Assembly (NCBI RefSeq): GCF_001602375.1
Contig: NZ_BCNY01000014.1
Coordinates: 124,001-188,000 of the forward strand
Direction: 5' to 3'
Length of the DNA stretch: 64,000 nucleotides
Source of the DNA: Methanoculleus horonobensis
GTDB taxonomy: Archaea; Halobacteriota; Methanomicrobia; Methanomicrobiales; Methanoculleaceae
Below, in pieces: positions 30,759-40,290 of the stretch (position 1 is its first letter; every line of letters begins with the position of its first letter). Under the pieces are notes generated by a model. It made no database searches. It was not told where the DNA came from and saw nothing but the letters and a program-made list of their open reading frames with translations. The translations under genes and the position numbers were made by a program.

Positions 30759-32759
30759 TTATGCGGGGATCCGATAGATCTGGACCCCCTGTGCATCATA
30801 GATGAGTTCGAGCGCATCCGTCGGGATCGAGACGGCATAGCGTTCGCGCTCTGCCGCACCCACGTAGAGCAGGGTGGCGTTGTATGCCCGCGCAAGGTCG
30901 ACGGTCCGGTCGGGCTGCTCATAGATTGCCCGCACATCGGCGCTCCGCTCGCTGATGCGCCCTTCATCGCCCCGCCACATGTACTCGTGGAAGGGCATCC
31001 CGATCACGGCCGGGATTCCGGTGAACGACGAGACCCTTGAATAGTAGGTGTAGTCGCCGCCCTCCGCCTCGACGATGACGTGGTCGCCGGGGAGGGTCCG
31101 GAGGAACGCGATCGCCGCCGCGTCAGAGGGATTCGAGCCTTCGAGGTATGCCGCCCCGTCGAGGGTGTGGCTCCCGTAGCCGAAGTCGACGTTGATCGCG
31201 AAGGGCGCGATGAGGAGCAGCACCGCGACCAGGACCGGGAGCGCCTTCTCCGCCCTATCCGGGATCTGCCGGTCGATCCCGGCGCCCCGGAGCCATTCCC
31301 CGATGACGGCGAGGCTCGCCGTCCCCATCAGGAACCATGCCGGGAGGTAGAACTTGAAGACCGTGTTCATCCGGAAGTAAGTTTCTCCCATGTTATCCAC
31401 GAGGTAAATGAGCTCGGTGACGAGGATGATCGCAAGCCCGAGCATCGCAAGCGTTTCGACTGCCGTAAAACGGCGGCGGGCGAGAAGGTAGACCAGCGGA
31501 ACGGCGGCGATGGCCGCGGCCGGGTAGCCGGCGAGCACGAACGGCACCGCGGCGAGCAGGAGGTAGGGGCGTCTCCGGATATCCGGTGCGCAGTACGCGA
31601 TCAGCACCGCGAGGAAGAACCCGTGAACCAGCAGGAACTCCACCGGTGCGGAGGGTGTGGGGACGATTGCGACTCCCGCGACGCCGGGGCTGTTGAGCTG
31701 CAGGTAGAATGGGAGGTAGGTCAGGATCGCGAGCGGTGGCACCGCTGCAAGCACCATCCAGGAGTTCAGGCTGTCCAACCGAAGATTTCCGTAGCGCCAC
31801 CATATCAGGAGGCCGAAGGCCAGCGTGACCGGGGCGTAGACCAGCACGTCCCAGGAGTTGAACCCGGGCATCGACCCGAGGGAGAGGGCGGCAAGCCCAC
31901 AGAGGAGTGCCCGCCCCCGCATGGAGAGTGTCCCCCACCGCATGTAGGCGAAGACCAGGAGAAAGAGCAGGAACCCCTGGTTGAAGAAACTCATAACGTG
32001 CGGGTGCACGTCGCCCCAGAGCATCGAAAAGATGGGATACTCGTTGATGGTGTTCTCGATCGTCCGGGTGCTCCCCCAGAGGACGTCGAACCAGGCATCC
32101 CCTATCAGGATGTGGTAGATGGCGGAGGGGTTCGGGAGGAAGAGTGCAACCACCGGGAGCCACCGGTAACGATCGAGGAGGAGGTGCCCGAGAGCGTAGA
32201 GTGAGACGACGGCAAGACCGAGCACCGTCGGGAGTGCAAGGTTGAAGGCGATCGTCGAAGGCACGCCGGATACGAGCCCGAGCACCCCATCCATCCAGTA
32301 GCCGAGGTAGTAGTAGACGTCCAGCGTCCCCCCTGCATACCAGGGATCGAGCGGCGGGACGGTGGGCACCCGCATGATCGAGGCGAGGATCGCGTGATCC
32401 ATGAACTTCTCGGCGTAGGAGATGCTCGGGTTGATCCAGCGCACCTCGAGCATGAAGAGGAAGGGAAGCAGGAAGGCGAGGTCCCAGGTGAGCGCGGCCT
32501 GTAGCCGCTCCCTCGTGAAGAACCGGCGCGACCCCGCATACGCTACTCCGGCCACAAACGGCAGGAGGCCGAGCACGATTGGGAGTCCTGTCAGTCCCAG
32601 GTACCACGTACCGAGCGTGAAGAGGAGAATTGATGCCGGGTATGCCGCGGCTGCCGAGAGGTTGTCGAGGGTGCGGTCGAGCGCCGGCCAGACGGCGAGT
32701 TGAAGCATCTTGACGACGAGAAGCCAGAGCAGCACGGGAACGATGAACTCAACCGCCAA
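30759..32759 (-). CDS. DUF2298 large membrane protein, putative GT-C glycosyltransferase
   Basis: 666 aa with about 13-15 membrane helices and a hydrophilic C-terminal domain of about 110 residues. Matches the DUF2298 family (TIGR03662-type): RWINPSISYAEKFMDHAILASI, DPWYAGGTLDVYYYLGYWM with acidic residues in the first long loop, WGDVHPHVMSFFNQG, and FRMNTVFKFYLPAWFL. The architecture is that of lipid-linked sugar glycosyltransferases. It overlaps the upstream flippase-like gene by 11 bases and is the last gene of a four-gene operon. Confidence 0.85.
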   Translation of the reverse strand: MAVEFIVPVLLWLLVVKMLQLAVWPALDRTLDNLSAAAAYPASILLFTLGTWYLGLTGLPIVLGLLPFVAGVAYAGSRRFFTRERLQAALTWDLAFLLPFLFMLEVRWINPSISYAEKFMDHAILASIMRVPTVPPLDPWYAGGTLDVYYYLGYWMDGVLGLVSGVPSTIAFNLALPTVLGLAVVSLYALGHLLLDRYRWLPVVALFLPNPSAIYHILIGDAWFDVLWGSTRTIENTINEYPIFSMLWGDVHPHVMSFFNQGFLLFLLVFAYMRWGTLSMRGRALLCGLAALSLGSMPGFNSWDVLVYAPVTLAFGLLIWWRYGNLRLDSLNSWMVLAAVPPLAILTYLPFYLQLNSPGVAGVAIVPTPSAPVEFLLVHGFFLAVLIAYCAPDIRRRPYLLLAAVPFVLAGYPAAAIAAVPLVYLLARRRFTAVETLAMLGLAIILVTELIYLVDNMGETYFRMNTVFKFYLPAWFLMGTASLAVIGEWLRGAGIDRQIPDRAEKALPVLVAVLLLIAPFAINVDFGYGSHTLDGAAYLEGSNPSDAAAIAFLRTLPGDHVIVEAEGGDYTYYSRVSSFTGIPAVIGMPFHEYMWRGDEGRISERSADVRAIYEQPDRTVDLARAYNATLLYVGAAERERYAVSIPTDALELIYDAQGVQIYRIPA

Positions 32760-33729
32760 ACGTATCCTCCTTCTCGATCTCCCTGTTGAATGCTCTCTTC
32801 AGGAGGCTCATCGACCAGTCGCCGAAGTAGTAGATCGACCCGACGCCCCCGACGAGCGTGACCAGGTTCTTGATCAGGTGGTCGATGACCGCTATCAGCG
32901 TTGCCGTGACCGCCGGGGTTCCCGCGAGCCCGAACGTCAGCGCGAGCGCGAGCTCGTAGGTTCCCACCCCTCCCGGAGTGATCGGAACGGCCTTGACGAG
33001 GTTGCCGATGACGATCGCGAGGACGACGATGCCGAACGGCACCGGCGCCTGGAACATCAAGACGACCGCGTAGCAGACCAGCACGTCGACGAGCCAGATC
33101 AGGAGCGATGACCCGCTGAGCACACCGAGAGCCCGGGGGTTGAGGGAGGCCCGCTTCACCTCATCAAGCATCCTCTGGATGGCGGCGACGATCCGGTTCC
33201 CCGACTCCATCCTGCCCGACCAGAGCAGCACGGCGAAGAAGACGGCCCCTGCGGCGAGGGGGACGACGATGACCGTGATGAACCAGTCGGGGACGTCGAG
33301 AACCGCGAGGACGAACGGGAGCGCGACGGCACCGAGTATCGCGATCATCAGGATGTCGAAGACACGCTCGACGACGAGGGAAGAGAACCCCTGCGAGTAG
33401 GTGGCGTCGTCCTCGTGCTTTAAGATCAGCATCCGCACGAAATCACCGAGGCGCGCGGGGACGATGAGGTTCGCCGTCTGGGAGATGAATATGCAGGCGG
33501 TCGAGAACCAGAGGCTCTTTCTGACGTCGAGCCCCTCCAGGATGAACCGGTACCGGTACCCCCGGAGAACCCAGGCAACAACGCAGATCCCGACGGCGGC
33601 AAAGAGGAAGGGTATTACGGCGTGCTCGAGCGTCAGCAGGAGTTCGTCCCATACGCGGTAGAGCATGTAGGCGACGATTCCGACCGCGATCAGGGTGGGG
33701 ATGACGACCGCGCTAACTTTTTTCCACAT
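32749..33729 (-). CDS. Flippase-like membrane protein (UPF0104/LPG synthase TM family)
   Basis: 326 aa from the ATG of MWKKVSAVV, preceded by GGTGGCGG; about eight membrane helices. Conserved UPF0104 features are LRGYRYRFILEG, LIVPARLGDFVRMLILK, SSLVVERVFDILM and the near-C-terminal VPITPGGVGTYELALAL. The family includes archaeal AglD-associated and bacterial MprF flippase domains that move lipid-linked substrates. It overlaps both neighbours (GT2 upstream, DUF2298 downstream), so it is likely to work with them in assembling or flipping a lipid-linked glycan. Confidence 0.88.
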   Translation of the reverse strand: MWKKVSAVVIPTLIAVGIVAYMLYRVWDELLLTLEHAVIPFLFAAVGICVVAWVLRGYRYRFILEGLDVRKSLWFSTACIFISQTANLIVPARLGDFVRMLILKHEDDATYSQGFSSLVVERVFDILMIAILGAVALPFVLAVLDVPDWFITVIVVPLAAGAVFFAVLLWSGRMESGNRIVAAIQRMLDEVKRASLNPRALGVLSGSSLLIWLVDVLVCYAVVLMFQAPVPFGIVVLAIVIGNLVKAVPITPGGVGTYELALALTFGLAGTPAVTATLIAVIDHLIKNLVTLVGGVGSIYYFGDWSMSLLKRAFNREIEKEDTFGG

Positions 33730-34432
33730 GGAGCCGCCACCAGAGACGAAGAATCGCCGATCCCATCTCAACTACGTCGTTCCTCCGTACCGTCGTTCCC
33801 TCTCCCTGCCGCCATTGCACGGGGAACTCCCGTATCCGGTAACCGTTCTTCTGCGCCCGAACCAGCACCTCGGTGTCCCAGAACCAGTGATCTGCAGTCA
33901 CCGACGGGATCAGGGAGAGGAGGCGGTCGCGCCGGAACGCCTTGAACCCGCATTGGTGATCGCAGAGCGAACTCCCGAGGATCGTCCTGACAAGCGTATT
34001 ATAACCGCGACTCGCGATCTCCCGCCCGCCGCTCCGTACAATAACGCTCGCGGGGAGGAGGCGGGAGCCCGTTGCAATGTCGTGGCCGTCGCGGATGGCG
34101 TCGATCAGTTCGGGGAGATACTGCATGTCGGTCGCGAGATCCACGTCGTAGTAGCAGACGATCGATCCCAGTGCCCCGGAAAACGCGCGGTTGAGCGCCC
34201 GCCCTCGCCCGAGCCGCTCGTCGGAATGGAGCAGGCGGACACGGGGGTCTTTGGCCTCGCACTCCCTGACGAACTCGGTGCTCCCGTCGGTGCTCCCATC
34301 CTCGGCGACGATCAGTTCGAACCTCCCCGGTGCGATCGCCTCGAGTGTCTCGAGCGACCGCGGTATCGCGGTCTTGAGGGCTGAAAGATCGTTGTAGACC
34401 GGAAGGACGGCACTCACCTCGACCTCACGCAT
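33713..34432 (-). CDS. GT2 glycosyltransferase, dolichyl-phosphate sugar synthase-like
   Basis: 239 aa. GT-A fold: VSAVLPVYNDLSAL, VAEDGSTDGSTEFV, the metal-binding YYDVDLATDMQYLPEL, and SSLCDHQCGFKAFRRD, the last of which is typical of dolichyl-phosphate mannose/glucose synthases. Unlike bacterial forms it has no C-terminal membrane helices; the next gene may supply them. Predicted to charge dolichyl phosphate with a hexose on the cytoplasmic face. Overlaps the FAD oxidoreductase gene by eight bases. Confidence 0.9.
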   Translation of the reverse strand: MREVEVSAVLPVYNDLSALKTAIPRSLETLEAIAPGRFELIVAEDGSTDGSTEFVRECEAKDPRVRLLHSDERLGRGRALNRAFSGALGSIVCYYDVDLATDMQYLPELIDAIRDGHDIATGSRLLPASVIVRSGGREIASRGYNTLVRTILGSSLCDHQCGFKAFRRDRLLSLIPSVTADHWFWDTEVLVRAQKNGYRIREFPVQWRQGEGTTVRRNDVVEMGSAILRLWWRLHVEKS

Positions 34433-35657
34433 CCGGATACCTCGCGAGAACCCTCTTCGCCACTTCCTGCCCGGCGACGACCGAACCGTTCATGCTCCGC
34501 TCCGGGTAGTTCGGGGGGCTGAACATCCCGGCGAGGAAGAGTCCGTGCTCTTCGTAGTCGGGCAGCCGGTTCCGGAGCCCCGTCGTGTAGACCGGGCCGG
34601 CGTACGGGTCGACCGCGAGCCGATGCCAGTGCACCTCGTCCTCGCTGACGGAGAACCGCCGGCAGAAGTCCCTGAGCATCGACTGCTCGAATCCTTCCGG
34701 GAGCCTGCCGCTGAAGTAGGATGCAAGGTAGACGATATGCTCGCCGTACCACGCGAACGGAGCGAAGTTGGTGTGCGAGACCACCGCACCGTAAGGAGCC
34801 GCATCTTTCATATTCAACCAGTAGATCCCGTCGGTCACGTCCCGATCGAGTGCGAGGGTCATGCAGGCGGCGCCCTGGTAGGGTATCCGGACGATATCGA
34901 GACCGGCAAGGTCTGCGGTCACCTGCGGGGGGAGCGTCGATATGACACAGTCATAGGCCTCTCCGTTGACGAGCCAGCCGCTGCCCTCCCGCCGGATCTC
35001 CTCGACGGGAGTCTCCGGCAGGATCGAGGCGCCCCGTCGCGCCGTCTCTTCCTCGAGCCGCGCGACGAAGGGCCGGAAACCCCCTTTCAGGTAGCCCAGG
35101 CGCTCGCCCCCGGCACCCCGGTCGGATCGGATGGCGATGCGGGATATGAGCCAGGCGGCGGAAACCTCGCCGGCGCGGTCGCCGAACTTGCTTTTCAAGA
35201 GCGGCTCGAAGAACGAGGAGTAAACCCCGGAACCGAGGTTGTCGAGGATGAAGTCCTTCGCGGTGATCCCGTCAAGCGCCGAGACGTCGAACCGGCGGGA
35301 GCGCAGGGTCAGCAGGCCGAGGCGGGCCTTTTCCATGAACGTGAGATGGGGGTAGCGCAGGATCTCGGTCGGAGCAGTGAGCGGGTGGATGATTCCGTCG
35401 ACATAGTAGCCGGTGGACCCTCGAAGCCAGACCAGCCGATCGGCCACCTGCAGCGTATCGAAGAGGTTAAGCAGGGCGGTATCTCCGGCAAAACAATGGT
35501 GGTAATACTCCTCGATCCAGTAATCGCCGATCCGGTACGAACCGAGGCAGCCGCCCGGAACCGGCCTTCGCTCGAAGAGATCTACCTGGTGTGTCCCGGC
35601 GAGTTCGAGCGCCGAGACCAGACCGGACAGACCTCCCCCCACAACGCAGATCTTCAT
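34425..35657 (-). CDS. FAD-dependent oxidoreductase, amine oxidase/UDP-galactopyranose mutase-like fold
   Basis: 410 aa. Begins KICVVGGGLSGLVSALELA (Rossmann FAD motif), then LFERRPVPGGCLGS, and ends FLAGMFSPPNYPERSMNGSVVAGQEVAKRV, the second FAD contact. Middle features LKGGFRPFVARLEEE and VISTLPPQV are seen in protoporphyrinogen-oxidase-like and phytoene-desaturase-like enzymes. As the first gene of a glycan/lipid operon it may modify a polyprenyl lipid or a sugar; archaeal geranylgeranyl reduction is another option. The exact reaction is unknown. Confidence 0.85.
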   Translation of the reverse strand: MKICVVGGGLSGLVSALELAGTHQVDLFERRPVPGGCLGSYRIGDYWIEEYYHHCFAGDTALLNLFDTLQVADRLVWLRGSTGYYVDGIIHPLTAPTEILRYPHLTFMEKARLGLLTLRSRRFDVSALDGITAKDFILDNLGSGVYSSFFEPLLKSKFGDRAGEVSAAWLISRIAIRSDRGAGGERLGYLKGGFRPFVARLEEETARRGASILPETPVEEIRREGSGWLVNGEAYDCVISTLPPQVTADLAGLDIVRIPYQGAACMTLALDRDVTDGIYWLNMKDAAPYGAVVSHTNFAPFAWYGEHIVYLASYFSGRLPEGFEQSMLRDFCRRFSVSEDEVHWHRLAVDPYAGPVYTTGLRNRLPDYEEHGLFLAGMFSPPNYPERSMNGSVVAGQEVAKRVLARYPDA

Positions 35658-35673
35658 TACTACCCCTACGTCT

Positions 35674-35725
35674 GAAAATTATAAGAACACTTTTGGGTTA
35701 TAATGTATGTATGGTCTTTATACAT
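35674..35725. promoter_or_regulatory. Back-to-back promoters of the oxidoreductase and cetZ operons
   Basis: Minus strand: CTTATAATTTTC at 35674-35685, about 25 bases before the ATG at 35657, implying a nearly leaderless message. Plus strand: CTTTATACAT at 35716-35725, about 50 bases before the cetZ ATG, whose ribosome site GAGGGTG lies at 35755-35761. Confidence 0.55.
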
Positions 35726-35770
35726 AAGCGTGGATATAATTAATTAGTCAATATGAGGGTGTGAAGCTGA

Positions 35771-36937
35771 ATGAGGGTCTTCTTCATAGGATTCGGTCAA
35801 GCTGGGGGCAAAATTGTCGATATGTTCATTGAACAGGACAAACGAATGCAGACCCAGAGTTTCAGGGGAATCGCTGTAAATACAGCGCGTACCGACCTGA
35901 TGGGACTGAAGAACATCGAGCTCAAAGACCGGCTCCTGATCGGCCAGACCGTGGTGAAAGGCCATGGGGTCGGGACCGACAACGTGACCGGTGCACGGGT
36001 GACCGCCGACGAGATTGATGCCATCATCAACGCCGTCGATTCGCGTGGTACACACGATATCGATGCATTCGTCATCATCGCCGGCCTCGGTGGCGGAACC
36101 GGCTCTGGGGGTTCGCCGGTGCTCGCCCGCCACTTAAAGCGTATCTACCGGGAACCGGTCTATGCGATCGGCATCCTGCCTGCCCCCGAGGAAGGCCGGC
36201 TCTATTCGTATAATGCAGCGCGTTCCCTGAGCACCCTGGTGAACGAGGCTGACAATACCTTCATCTTCGATAACAGTGCCTGGAAGAATGAGGGAGAAAG
36301 CGTCAAGGACGCGTATAACCGGCTGAACGACGAGATCGTCCGCCGGTTCGGCGTACTTTTCCGTGCCGGCGAGGTCGGCAAGGCGGGTGTCGGCGAGATG
36401 GTCGTTGACTCGAGCGAGGTCATCAACACTCTCCGGGGTGGCGGCATCAGCACTGTCGGGTATGCCATCAGCGAGAAGATCAGTCCGCGCACGAAACAGA
36501 ACCAGGGGCTCCTCTCCGGTCTGGTGCGCAAAAAGGAGAAGACCGAGGAGGTGCTGACCGGCGAGGACAAGTCGGCGAAGATCATCGCCCTCGTCAGGCG
36601 TGCCATGCTCGGACGTCTCACCCTGCCGTGCGACTACTCGACGGCCGAGCGCGGTCTCGTCCTTCTCGCGGGCCCACCTGATGAGATGGACCGGAAGGGC
36701 GTTGAGAAGTCGAAGAGCTGGGTGGAGGAGAACATCGCCGGCGTCGAGGTGCGTGGTGGTGATTACCCGGTGCAGAGCGACTACATCGCTGCGGTGGTGG
36801 TTCTTGCGACGATCGGGAACGCTCCCCGGATCACCGAACTTCTTGAGATTGCCAAGTCCACGAAGGAAGATGTCCTTAAGTCGAAGGAAAAGCGCTCAAC
36901 CATGTTCGACGACGGCATAGAGCCGTTGTTTGAGTGA
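35771..36937 (+). CDS. cetZ: Tubulin-like CetZ protein
   Basis: 388 aa. CetZ proteins are archaeal FtsZ/tubulin relatives that assemble with GTP and, in haloarchaea, control cell shape. The GTP-binding loops are clear: GFGQAGGKI (T1, residues 7-15), NTARTDLMGL (T3 region), the tubulin signature GGGTGSG at 107-113 followed by GSPVLARHLKRIY, and GILPAPEEGRLYSYNAARS (T5/H6 region). The GQAGG T1 loop and GGGTGSGGSP context distinguish it from FtsZ1 and FtsZ2. It is the first gene of an operon with the membrane protein that starts nine bases after its stop. Confidence 0.92.
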   Translation: MRVFFIGFGQAGGKIVDMFIEQDKRMQTQSFRGIAVNTARTDLMGLKNIELKDRLLIGQTVVKGHGVGTDNVTGARVTADEIDAIINAVDSRGTHDIDAFVIIAGLGGGTGSGGSPVLARHLKRIYREPVYAIGILPAPEEGRLYSYNAARSLSTLVNEADNTFIFDNSAWKNEGESVKDAYNRLNDEIVRRFGVLFRAGEVGKAGVGEMVVDSSEVINTLRGGGISTVGYAISEKISPRTKQNQGLLSGLVRKKEKTEEVLTGEDKSAKIIALVRRAMLGRLTLPCDYSTAERGLVLLAGPPDEMDRKGVEKSKSWVEENIAGVEVRGGDYPVQSDYIAAVVVLATIGNAPRITELLEIAKSTKEDVLKSKEKRSTMFDDGIEPLFE

Positions 36938-36946
36938 GGAGACGTT

Positions 36947-38032
36947 ATGAAGGGAAACATCAGCAGATGGCTTATTCTCCTGCTGGCACTGGTCTGTGTC
37001 GTGCAGGCAGTAGCGGCGTTCGACGTCAAGACCGAGAAGGTTGATCCCGCGAGCGGTGCTCTCGAACCCGGTCAGCAGGTGACCGCGCGTTACGTGCTCA
37101 CCTACAATATGGTCACCTCCGGTGGCAACGACGAGACGTTCGAGTTCAGCACCGGACTGCAGAACCCCGTCTGGGACTTCATCGTCTACCGCGACGGGGT
37201 CGCCATCTATACCACCAGAAAGACCGGGTACTACCCGATCCTGACGGAGTTCGAGATCGATTACGGCGACGAGGAGATCGAGCTGGATGCGCAGTTGCGC
37301 GGCATCGTCCCCTCGAGCGCGAGCACAAAGGTTCTGGTGACCAAGATCGAGCATCTGCGGGGCGACGATGTGAAGGACACCCACTCCGTGAGCCGTGACG
37401 TCGTGAATTCGGCTCAGGTCGAGGGTTCCCTTGCCGCCCAGCAGCAGCGCCTCAAAGACCTGAAGGCCGATATCGACGAAAAATCCGCAGAGGGCGTGGA
37501 TGTCTCTGCAGTCCAGGCCGAGTACAACGCCGCGAGCCAGGCGCTCACCAGTGCTGCGTCTGCAGGTCCGTCACAGGCGGCGAGTTACATCGCTACCGCG
37601 AAGAAAGACATAGACGAGGGAATTGCGCTCCTCGATAAGGCGTGGGCCGAGAAGGCGGTCGCCGACACCGGTGCGGCGATCGAGTCTCTCGACGGGATGA
37701 TCACCTACTTCGTCGAGAACCGTTCCATGAGTGCCGATCCGCAGGTGGTCGCCATCATGACCAAGCGCGAGAGCGCCGTCCAGTTCTACTCCCAGGCACA
37801 GGACAACCTGAACGGCAAGAACTATCCGCTGGCGCGCTCGAAGGCCGGAGACGGCCTGAGTAAGGCGAACGAGGCTCTTGGTGATGCAAACGCTCTCCGG
37901 GAGAGGATAGGCGAGGGGTTCAGCCTTGGAGGTGACCTCCTCCTCTACATCGGCGTCGGGATTGTCATCGTCCTCGTTGTCGCGGGTATCGTGATGTACC
38001 GGAAGAAGACCGGGTGGGACGAACTCGGATAA
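36947..38032 (+). CDS. Membrane-anchored extracellular protein co-transcribed with cetZ
   Basis: 361 aa, no family recognised. A signal peptide (ISRWLILLLALVCVVQAVAA) is followed by a beta-rich domain (about residues 25-150), an alpha-helical region with coiled-coil character (about 155-315, many Ala/Gln/Glu/Lys, for example LAAQQQRLKDLKADIDEK), one membrane helix (about 327-350) and a short basic tail RKKTGWDELG. So nearly all of it lies outside the membrane, with ten or so residues inside. GAGGAG precedes the ATG, nine bases after the cetZ stop. A transmembrane anchor or envelope sensor for the CetZ polymer is a reasonable hypothesis. Confidence 0.8.
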   Translation: MKGNISRWLILLLALVCVVQAVAAFDVKTEKVDPASGALEPGQQVTARYVLTYNMVTSGGNDETFEFSTGLQNPVWDFIVYRDGVAIYTTRKTGYYPILTEFEIDYGDEEIELDAQLRGIVPSSASTKVLVTKIEHLRGDDVKDTHSVSRDVVNSAQVEGSLAAQQQRLKDLKADIDEKSAEGVDVSAVQAEYNAASQALTSAASAGPSQAASYIATAKKDIDEGIALLDKAWAEKAVADTGAAIESLDGMITYFVENRSMSADPQVVAIMTKRESAVQFYSQAQDNLNGKNYPLARSKAGDGLSKANEALGDANALRERIGEGFSLGGDLLLYIGVGIVIVLVVAGIVMYRKKTGWDELG

Positions 38033-38601: not shown

Positions 38602-40290
38602 TCAGGCAGTCGTCCCTGTGGGAACCCTCGAGAAGACCTCGAGGTTCCTGCTCCCCATCTTCCCGTCCCGCAGGAAGTAATACTCGGGCAGCCTGTTCTT
38701 GTTCTCCTCGTAGGAGAACCAGTAGTTCAGCCGGTAGGTCTCCTTCACGTAGCCTTCGAGGGTCGGGTAGGTATCGGCGTCGTGGGTGATCACGAGATCG
38801 AAGTTTCCTCCGTATATCGTCGCTTCACTCACCTTCTCGCTGTAATACGCGAGTTTTGAGGCGCGATCGCCCCGGTAATACCAGGGGAGCGGCCAGTAGG
38901 AGTCGGTCGCGACCGCCACCTTATCCGCGGCATCGATCTTCGCGAAGACCTCCCGCAGGTCTTCGGAGTTCTGCACCTGCACGATGGGCTCGTTGATATC
39001 CGTCGGGGTGTACACGACGTGGAGCGTCATGACGATCAGGAAGACGCTTGCCATGACGGCGATGACCGCCTTCTTCGTGGTCATCAGATAGACCGCGACG
39101 AAGATCATGGGCAGGAGTTGGTGGAGGATCAGCCACGGCACCTTCTCGCCGAGGTAAGCGTAGACCGCAAGCGAGAGAAGCATCCAGAAGATGGCGAACC
39201 TCGCGAACTCCTTCTGCCGGTCGATCGGCAGGAGTTCTCCGCTGCCGGAGAGGATCTCGCGAAGCCGGTCTTTGAAGCCCGATCTCCGTCCGACGGGCGG
39301 GGCTTCAATCTCTTGAGCCTCCTCAGTCTCTGCCTCTGCCTCGGTCTCTTCTCCTTCGCCGGGACTCTCCGTGCTCCCCGCCCGTCGCCCCTTCCAGCGG
39401 GAGATTATACCGGGGATATCGACGAACTGCAGAACCCCGATCGCGGCGAGGATCAGGATCGGCACCTCGTAGAGGAGGAAGAGCAGGATATAGAAGTACG
39501 GCGGCCCACCGAGGCGCTGGGCCTGGTGCATCGACGTCCAGTGCTCGATTGCCCGGAGCCATCCGTCCATGAGCACCTCGGGGTGGGCGCCGAACGACGA
39601 GTAGAAGACCGCCATGATCCCGATCGTGACGAGGGCGCCGAGCACGAGATCGCGGATCCAGCGTCTCGGAAGCCTGACCTTTCTCGTCCAGATCAGGTAA
39701 AGGAGATATGCCCCGAAGATCAGGACGATGATCGGCATGTTCTCCTTCGCGGTCATCCCGAACCCGATCGCCGCTCCGGCAATGAGCGCATACTGCATCT
39801 TCTGCCGCTCGAAGTAGTAAAGGAGGGCGACGAGGAGCACCATCGTGAAGAAAGCGATGAATATGTCGTTTCGGAGAAACCGCGAGAAGTAGACCATATT
39901 CGGCGATACGGCGAGGAAGAGCGCCGCGACAATCGTCTGCTTCTTATCGAGATAGCCGAGCCGGTAGATTGGGTATACCAGGGGGACGAGCAGGGTGCCG
40001 AGCAGTGCCGGGAAGAGCCGGCCCACGAGATCGGAGTCTCCGAGCAGCGAGAATATCCCGGCTGTTACGTAGTAGAGGAACGGCCCGTGATACATGGGAT
40101 CGTAGGTATACGTCCCCTCGGTCAGGAGCCGATAGGAGAACCACGCGTGAATAGCCTCGTCGTGGTGAAATAACTTTACGTCGAGCGAGTAAAAACGGAG
40201 GGCAATTGTGGCCAGAAATATGAGGAGAAAAAGCCCCTCGAATGAGAGTAACCGTTCACGGACTCCTGCCGCGAACACGGCGGCCTTCAC
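38602..40290 (-). CDS. Agl23-like flippase-associated membrane protein (TIGR03663 family)
   Basis: 562 aa, about 11-12 membrane helices in the GT-C/PMT style. The signature FHHDEAIHAWFSYRLL in the first outer loop (catalytic acidic residue position) plus YDPMYHGPFLYYVTAG, FSRFLRNDIFIAFFT and GFGMTAKENMPII match the archaeal family tied to N-glycan flipping. An acidic insert rich in Glu (about residues 305-335) sits in a cytoplasmic loop. It starts 12 bases after the S10 stop and so is transcribed with EF-1 alpha and S10, an odd home for a membrane glycosylation protein. Confidence 0.85.
   Translation of the reverse strand: MKAAVFAAGVRERLLSFEGLFLLIFLATIALRFYSLDVKLFHHDEAIHAWFSYRLLTEGTYTYDPMYHGPFLYYVTAGIFSLLGDSDLVGRLFPALLGTLLVPLVYPIYRLGYLDKKQTIVAALFLAVSPNMVYFSRFLRNDIFIAFFTMVLLVALLYYFERQKMQYALIAGAAIGFGMTAKENMPIIVLIFGAYLLYLIWTRKVRLPRRWIRDLVLGALVTIGIMAVFYSSFGAHPEVLMDGWLRAIEHWTSMHQAQRLGGPPYFYILLFLLYEVPILILAAIGVLQFVDIPGIISRWKGRRAGSTESPGEGEETEAEAETEEAQEIEAPPVGRRSGFKDRLREILSGSGELLPIDRQKEFARFAIFWMLLSLAVYAYLGEKVPWLILHQLLPMIFVAVYLMTTKKAVIAVMASVFLIVMTLHVVYTPTDINEPIVQVQNSEDLREVFAKIDAADKVAVATDSYWPLPWYYRGDRASKLAYYSEKVSEATIYGGNFDLVITHDADTYPTLEGYVKETYRLNYWFSYEENKNRLPEYYFLRDGKMGSRNLEVFSRVPTGTTA

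Follow-up and report, generated by a model that had tools for sequence, protein, structure and literature searches.

SepF, FtsA and ZipA are the closest counterparts, in proposed role, of the gene pair described here, as each links a tubulin-family polymer to the membrane. They do so with a folded cytosolic domain that binds the C-terminal region of FtsZ, as reported for SepF (PMC8178401). In a second type of system, FtsZl1, an FtsZ/tubulin homologue likewise shares an operon with membrane proteins, but it belongs to a different FtsZ-like family and has vWA, kinase and GTPase partners (PMC2875224). For CetZ itself, we found no membrane partner in the papers searched. One published survey of cetZ neighbourhoods (PMC9856176) is relevant. 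In its accessible text, the section on cetZ1 names nolA, cof and pur genes, the non-haloarchaeal synteny analysis is restricted to cetZ genes from outside the Halobacteria branch, and the gene described below is not mentioned.

We analyzed a 64,000-nucleotide stretch of Methanoculleus horonobensis DNA, hereafter the window, in which a cetZ gene is directly followed by a gene for a predicted type I membrane protein, its partner (Table 1). In Pfam, the cetZ product matched the CetZ_C family (PF21011) at 246.7 bits (cut-off 21.6) and the Tubulin GTPase domain (PF00091) at 110.6 bits, and the GGGTGSG T4 loop was present as GLGGGTGSGG. Its best PDB sequence match was 4b46, which we take to be Haloferax CetZ1, at 418 bits, compared with only 84 bits for 3zid from the other subfamily. 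Because of this difference, sequence comparison places the protein in the Halobacteria-like CetZ subgroup and not in the Thermococcus/Methanosaeta-like one. The CetZ1 of Haloferax resembles it in CetZ_C family, in the match to 4b46 and in a C-terminal peptide of the [ED]PLF type, and in Haloferax species, too, a homologous partner gene follows. The intergenic region upstream of cetZ contains a TATA-like element, TTTATACATA, and is probably the single promoter of both genes, which are probably made from one message. The same genome encodes a second, non-Halobacteria-like CetZ (L004, C15:884873) of 648 codons with a long C-terminal extension. By inspection, neither this gene nor FtsZ1 or FtsZ2 of the genome had a neighbor combining the partner architecture with its tail.

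Table 1. Features of the cetZ-partner locus and its surroundings, in window coordinates
Feature	Position	Strand	Basis or remark
Flanking glycan genes	32749-35657 and 38602-40290		LPG_synthase_TM, GT2 and amine oxidase divergent; PMT convergent
Intergenic region 5' of cetZ	35658..35770	+	TATA-like TTTATACATA at 35717-35726
cetZ, 388 aa, encoding a tubulin-superfamily GTPase, Halobacteria-like CetZ group	35771..36937	+	PF21011, PF00091, PDB match
CetZ C-terminal peptide DGIEPLFE	36911..36934	+	[ED]PLFE in 63/68 pairs; also kept where partner lost
Partner gene, 361 aa, predicted type I membrane protein	36947..38032	+	ATG 9 bases after cetZ TGA
Predicted signal peptide, residues 1-24, MKGNISRWLILLLALVCVVQAVAA	36947..37018	+	Sequence; helix 4-18 in AF2 model
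Predicted Ig-like beta-sandwich head, residues 25-152	37019..37402	+	AF2 model
Predicted helical stalk, five helices, residues 155-323	37409..37915	+	AF2 model, pLDDT mostly >90
Predicted transmembrane helix, residues ~331-351	37937..37999	+	Sequence and AF2 model
Predicted cytosolic tail RKKTGWDELG	38000..38029	+	WDELG = 38015-38029, near-invariant

The first-pass annotation had read the second gene as starting nine bases after the cetZ stop, which the two open reading frames confirm to the base. It had also read in its product a signal peptide, a beta domain, a helical region, a membrane helix and a basic tail. An AF2 model built from 48 aligned natural homologues reproduced this architecture with a mean pLDDT of 88.8, and disorder was limited to a linker and the last residues. 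The supposedly coiled-coil-like region did prove helical in the model, but the decisive feature of the protein turned out to be its near-invariant C-terminus instead. This tail should face the cytosol because RKK directly follows the membrane helix, as the positive-inside rule would predict. The annotation's remark that the protein is unlike known CetZ-associated proteins also held in the papers searched and in the databases, since searches of Pfam, NCBIfam and PDB sequences gave no hit to the partner that passed a cut-off. For the head, a Foldseek search against the PDB returned only generic Ig-like sandwiches at low TM-scores.

Several known identities were considered for the partner and rejected. 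It does not appear to be an archaeosortase substrate (PGF-CTERM and similar), as no NCBIfam CTERM model matched, nor an annotated S-layer protein, as no S-layer domain of Pfam or NCBIfam did. Membership in SepF, FtsA or ZipA was likewise discarded because none of these families was found at E<=1 in Pfam or NCBIfam. From sequence and model together, we propose a partner family with a signal peptide, an Ig-like head, helices, one membrane helix and a short basic tail ending in aromatic-D-[EK]-L-[GRK], all of which the window protein has. Whereas SepF, FtsA and ZipA keep their folded domain in the cytosol, the partner would place a tail of ten residues inside and its fold outside, and its adaptor logic therefore looks inverted relative to theirs.

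To place the pair within the window's order, Methanomicrobiales, we counted both genes in 150 of its genomes. CetZ_C was found in 148 of these and the partner in 139, or in 107 of the 108 good assemblies. By joined coordinates, the partner lay directly 3' of a same-strand CetZ in at least 131 of the 150 genomes, so the pair is conserved across the order and is not a peculiarity of this one genome. The CetZ domain and the partner match were 85-144 nt apart in 129 of those 131 genomes, and the gap between the genes was 1-19 nt in 67 of 68 distinct extracted pairs. This adjacency is far above chance. Tail-bearing partners without a detected CetZ alongside were limited to four genomes (G136, G061, G044 and G127), all of them fragmented assemblies. 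Glycan genes around the pair were also kept across the order (GT2 in 25 of 25 other representatives, PMT in 17), and adjacency inside the order is therefore less telling than adjacency across classes.

The two proteins have changed at very different rates. Among 17 genomes compared, identity to the window pair was 68-98% for CetZ but 28-82% for the partner; on these alignments, the partner ectodomain evolves fast and CetZ does not. The most conserved stretch of the partner was its last five residues, WDELG, with a mean conservation of 97.5% compared to 46% across 357 well-filled columns, and the D, E and L of this tail were invariant in all 48 partner sequences. All 68 extracted methanogen pairs had a partner ending in [WY]DEL plus one residue, but because this ending was also used to select the pairs, a genome-wide count of WDELG followed by a stop codon is the unbiased figure. 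Of the 150 genomes, 132 had this codon pattern once and only once, while the reversed control pattern produced 2 matches in total among all of them. The 132 sites comprised 128 at the exact base where a partner found by homology ends, three just behind CetZ (G130, G106 and G098) and a remaining one in G144. Genomes without the pattern were mostly incomplete assemblies or carried variants such as YDELF, YDELG and WDELA. By contrast, paralogues in one family (f2) that are unlinked to CetZ have kept the ectodomain but lack the membrane helix and tail; instead, they have a Ser/Thr-rich linker and a C-terminus of another kind. The tail is thus dispensable for the ectodomain and has been retained with the CetZ-associated type.

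Haloarchaeal partners were detected independently, starting from CetZ loci, with no partner sequence in the query. In Halobacteria, the end of cetZ1 is overlapped by a gene of 250-275 codons (start overlaps mostly 23-38 nt) encoding a signal peptide, an Ig-like domain, helices, a membrane helix and a tail of YDKLG, YDKLR or YSKL. Its AF2 model (mean pLDDT 87.2) has the same order of elements as the methanogen partner, and profile-profile comparison found the two homologous (E 7.5e-22), with the alignment reaching into the tail. Fifty of 71 haloarchaeal partners end in aromatic-D-[KR]-L. Among named cetZ1 loci of haloarchaea, 46 of 80 had the partner, including 12 from Haloferax, where a CofC-like gene comes next. 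By locus numbering, the H. volcanii partner should be HVO_2203, between cetZ1 (HVO_2204) and cofC. HVO_2203 is mentioned in none of the papers searched, a search that did not extend to supplementary tables or bioRxiv, and the literature on CetZ membrane anchoring found there contains no such partner.

The other 34 named cetZ1 loci, nearly all from Halorubrum and its allies, had no partner. A profile search of 13 partner-less genomes found no copy elsewhere in them, while each of 3 positive controls yielded one. The partner was also absent at the 16 loci examined in a second haloarchaeal family (f21), as well as in L285. Both groups have kept CetZ with an intact C-terminus. To identify a possible docking site, we compared CetZ of the two groups without the partner for parallel substitutions, but none was common to both. 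In f21 alone, cetZ1 (L269-L284) has E125 replaced by I or V and E353 by R, two sites at which other CetZ proteins nearly always have an acidic residue. All groups, including the partner-less ones, have kept the C-terminal [ED]PLF-type peptide of CetZ, so this peptide has some other task or ligand. Moreover, vesicles of Halorubrum lacusprofundi reportedly contain CetZ (PMC10927574); the presence of CetZ at the envelope of Halorubrum, where the partner is missing, indicates that the partner is not the sole membrane attachment of CetZ. An apparent CetZ-partner fusion in a Haloquadratum MAG (L220) was rejected because it is due to a scaffold gap filled with N.

Outside these groups, the class containing G252, which is probably Archaeoglobi, had CetZ in 58 of 59 genomes, and in at least 19 of the 59, by coordinates, the gene following CetZ ended in [WF]DEL[RK]. 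Profile comparison again found this partner homologous to that of methanogens (E 3e-42) and aligned into the tail. The partner is unlinked to CetZ in several genera of Archaeoglobi. The first-pass annotation had counted a partner gene with its own promoter in unrelated contexts as evidence against the pairing, and such unlinked genes do exist; however, they still end in WDELR or WDELK, and this retention favors a functional link to CetZ. In eight more families (f10, f11, f16, f18, f19, f24, f26 and f34), CetZ is followed by a protein of the partner architecture, with tails that vary (RRWERL, SSWDKLG, RRWDRLG, KRGIY) and in some cases are quite different (KRGIY, RRPPLG). The pair spans one large archaeal phylum, in which a partner gene usually comes after cetZ, and occurs in Methanomicrobiales, Archaeoglobi, Halobacteria and eight other families; its earlier description as a possible module of methanogens was too narrow. 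Across classes, only CetZ and the partner were regularly shared between neighborhoods, except for an epimerase-like gene common to one family and Halobacteria. Members of a further family, f12 (L240, L241 and L242), have a partner homologue without a detected CetZ, with tails of RKKL, RSKL and RAKL.

The best explanation, to which we assign a probability of roughly 0.6, is that the two genes form a unit of CetZ and a dedicated transmembrane adaptor that docks on CetZ through its cytosolic tail. After export directed by the signal peptide, a single membrane helix would retain the adaptor, leaving the stalk and Ig-like head outside and about ten residues inside. Its basic stretch and C-terminal aromatic-D-E/K-L-G/R would then dock on CetZ, or on a constant companion of CetZ, and thereby link CetZ polymers with the membrane and the exterior coat. 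A tail of about ten residues could hardly be an enzyme and is thus likely a binding peptide, and CetZ is the only protein observed alongside the tail throughout. Counted against an adaptor are the f12 homologue without a detected CetZ, the divergent tails and the lineages that keep CetZ without a partner. We infer direct binding of the tail to CetZ, contact of the head with the surface layer and cell shape as the output, although the contact between head and surface layer is doubtful. Equally tentative is the proposal that an ancient, widespread linker couples CetZ to the surface layer via a five-residue docking motif, in the manner of an integrin, and that this explains cell shaping. Integrin-type linkers are type I membrane proteins with external folded domains and a short cytosolic tail that meets the cytoskeleton. 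The partner would have a similar layout, but the comparison with these eukaryotic proteins is an analogy only, as no homology was found.

The same data could describe a surface receptor or sensor, whose head would sense the coat or exterior and whose tail would modulate CetZ assembly without mechanical anchoring. Receptors, like linkers, typically combine a rapidly evolving ectodomain with a fixed tail, but we consider this reading unlikely given that the protein has no signaling domain and a cytosolic part of only about ten residues. The tail could also dock on another conserved cytosolic protein (e.g., a MinD-family ATPase or a glycan/S-layer assembly factor), with CetZ co-expressed because both serve envelope growth and without direct contact between them. 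CetZ1 localization does depend on MinD2/MinD4 (PMC11621097), conserved glycan genes (GT2, LPG_synthase_TM, amine oxidase and PMT) flank the pair in the order, and the two lineages that lost the partner show no shared CetZ change. Still, another ligand is also unlikely, as CetZ alone regularly neighbors the partner across classes, the tail tracks Halobacteria-like CetZ and unlinked paralogues lose the tail. Conserved synteny without functional meaning, in which the pair was co-inherited and never broken up, would suit the conserved wider gene order within the order but is very improbable, since the pairing persists between classes with differing other neighbors and since unlinked Archaeoglobi partners retain the tail, whereas unlinked paralogues have lost it.

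With an inward-facing tip that is nearly constant in evolution, the partner is a strong candidate for the link between the internal CetZ skeleton and the cell surface, and it provides a named candidate for CetZ action on the envelope in the model genus Haloferax. The five-residue tail is open to deletion and point mutation, which makes the question of how CetZ and the envelope are connected directly testable. If the linker reading is true, a mechanical connection between inside and outside, analogous to integrin-type linkage, would extend across the phylum.

Other gene arrangements were observed around relatives of the partner. At six loci (L144, L145, L146, L147, L151 and L155), a WDELR protein is followed by another membrane protein with [DE]KW at its end; the two genes overlap, mostly by ~18 nt, with no CetZ within the stretch examined. 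The partner homologue of L240 (f12) adjoins GrpE- and DnaK-like genes, as judged by eye. The f2 paralogues (L124, L125, L126, L127 and L128) have a conserved C-terminus of their own, LHSEV...ASDN and similar, and in L124 and L128 they appeared, again by eye, to adjoin a universal-stress-type gene.
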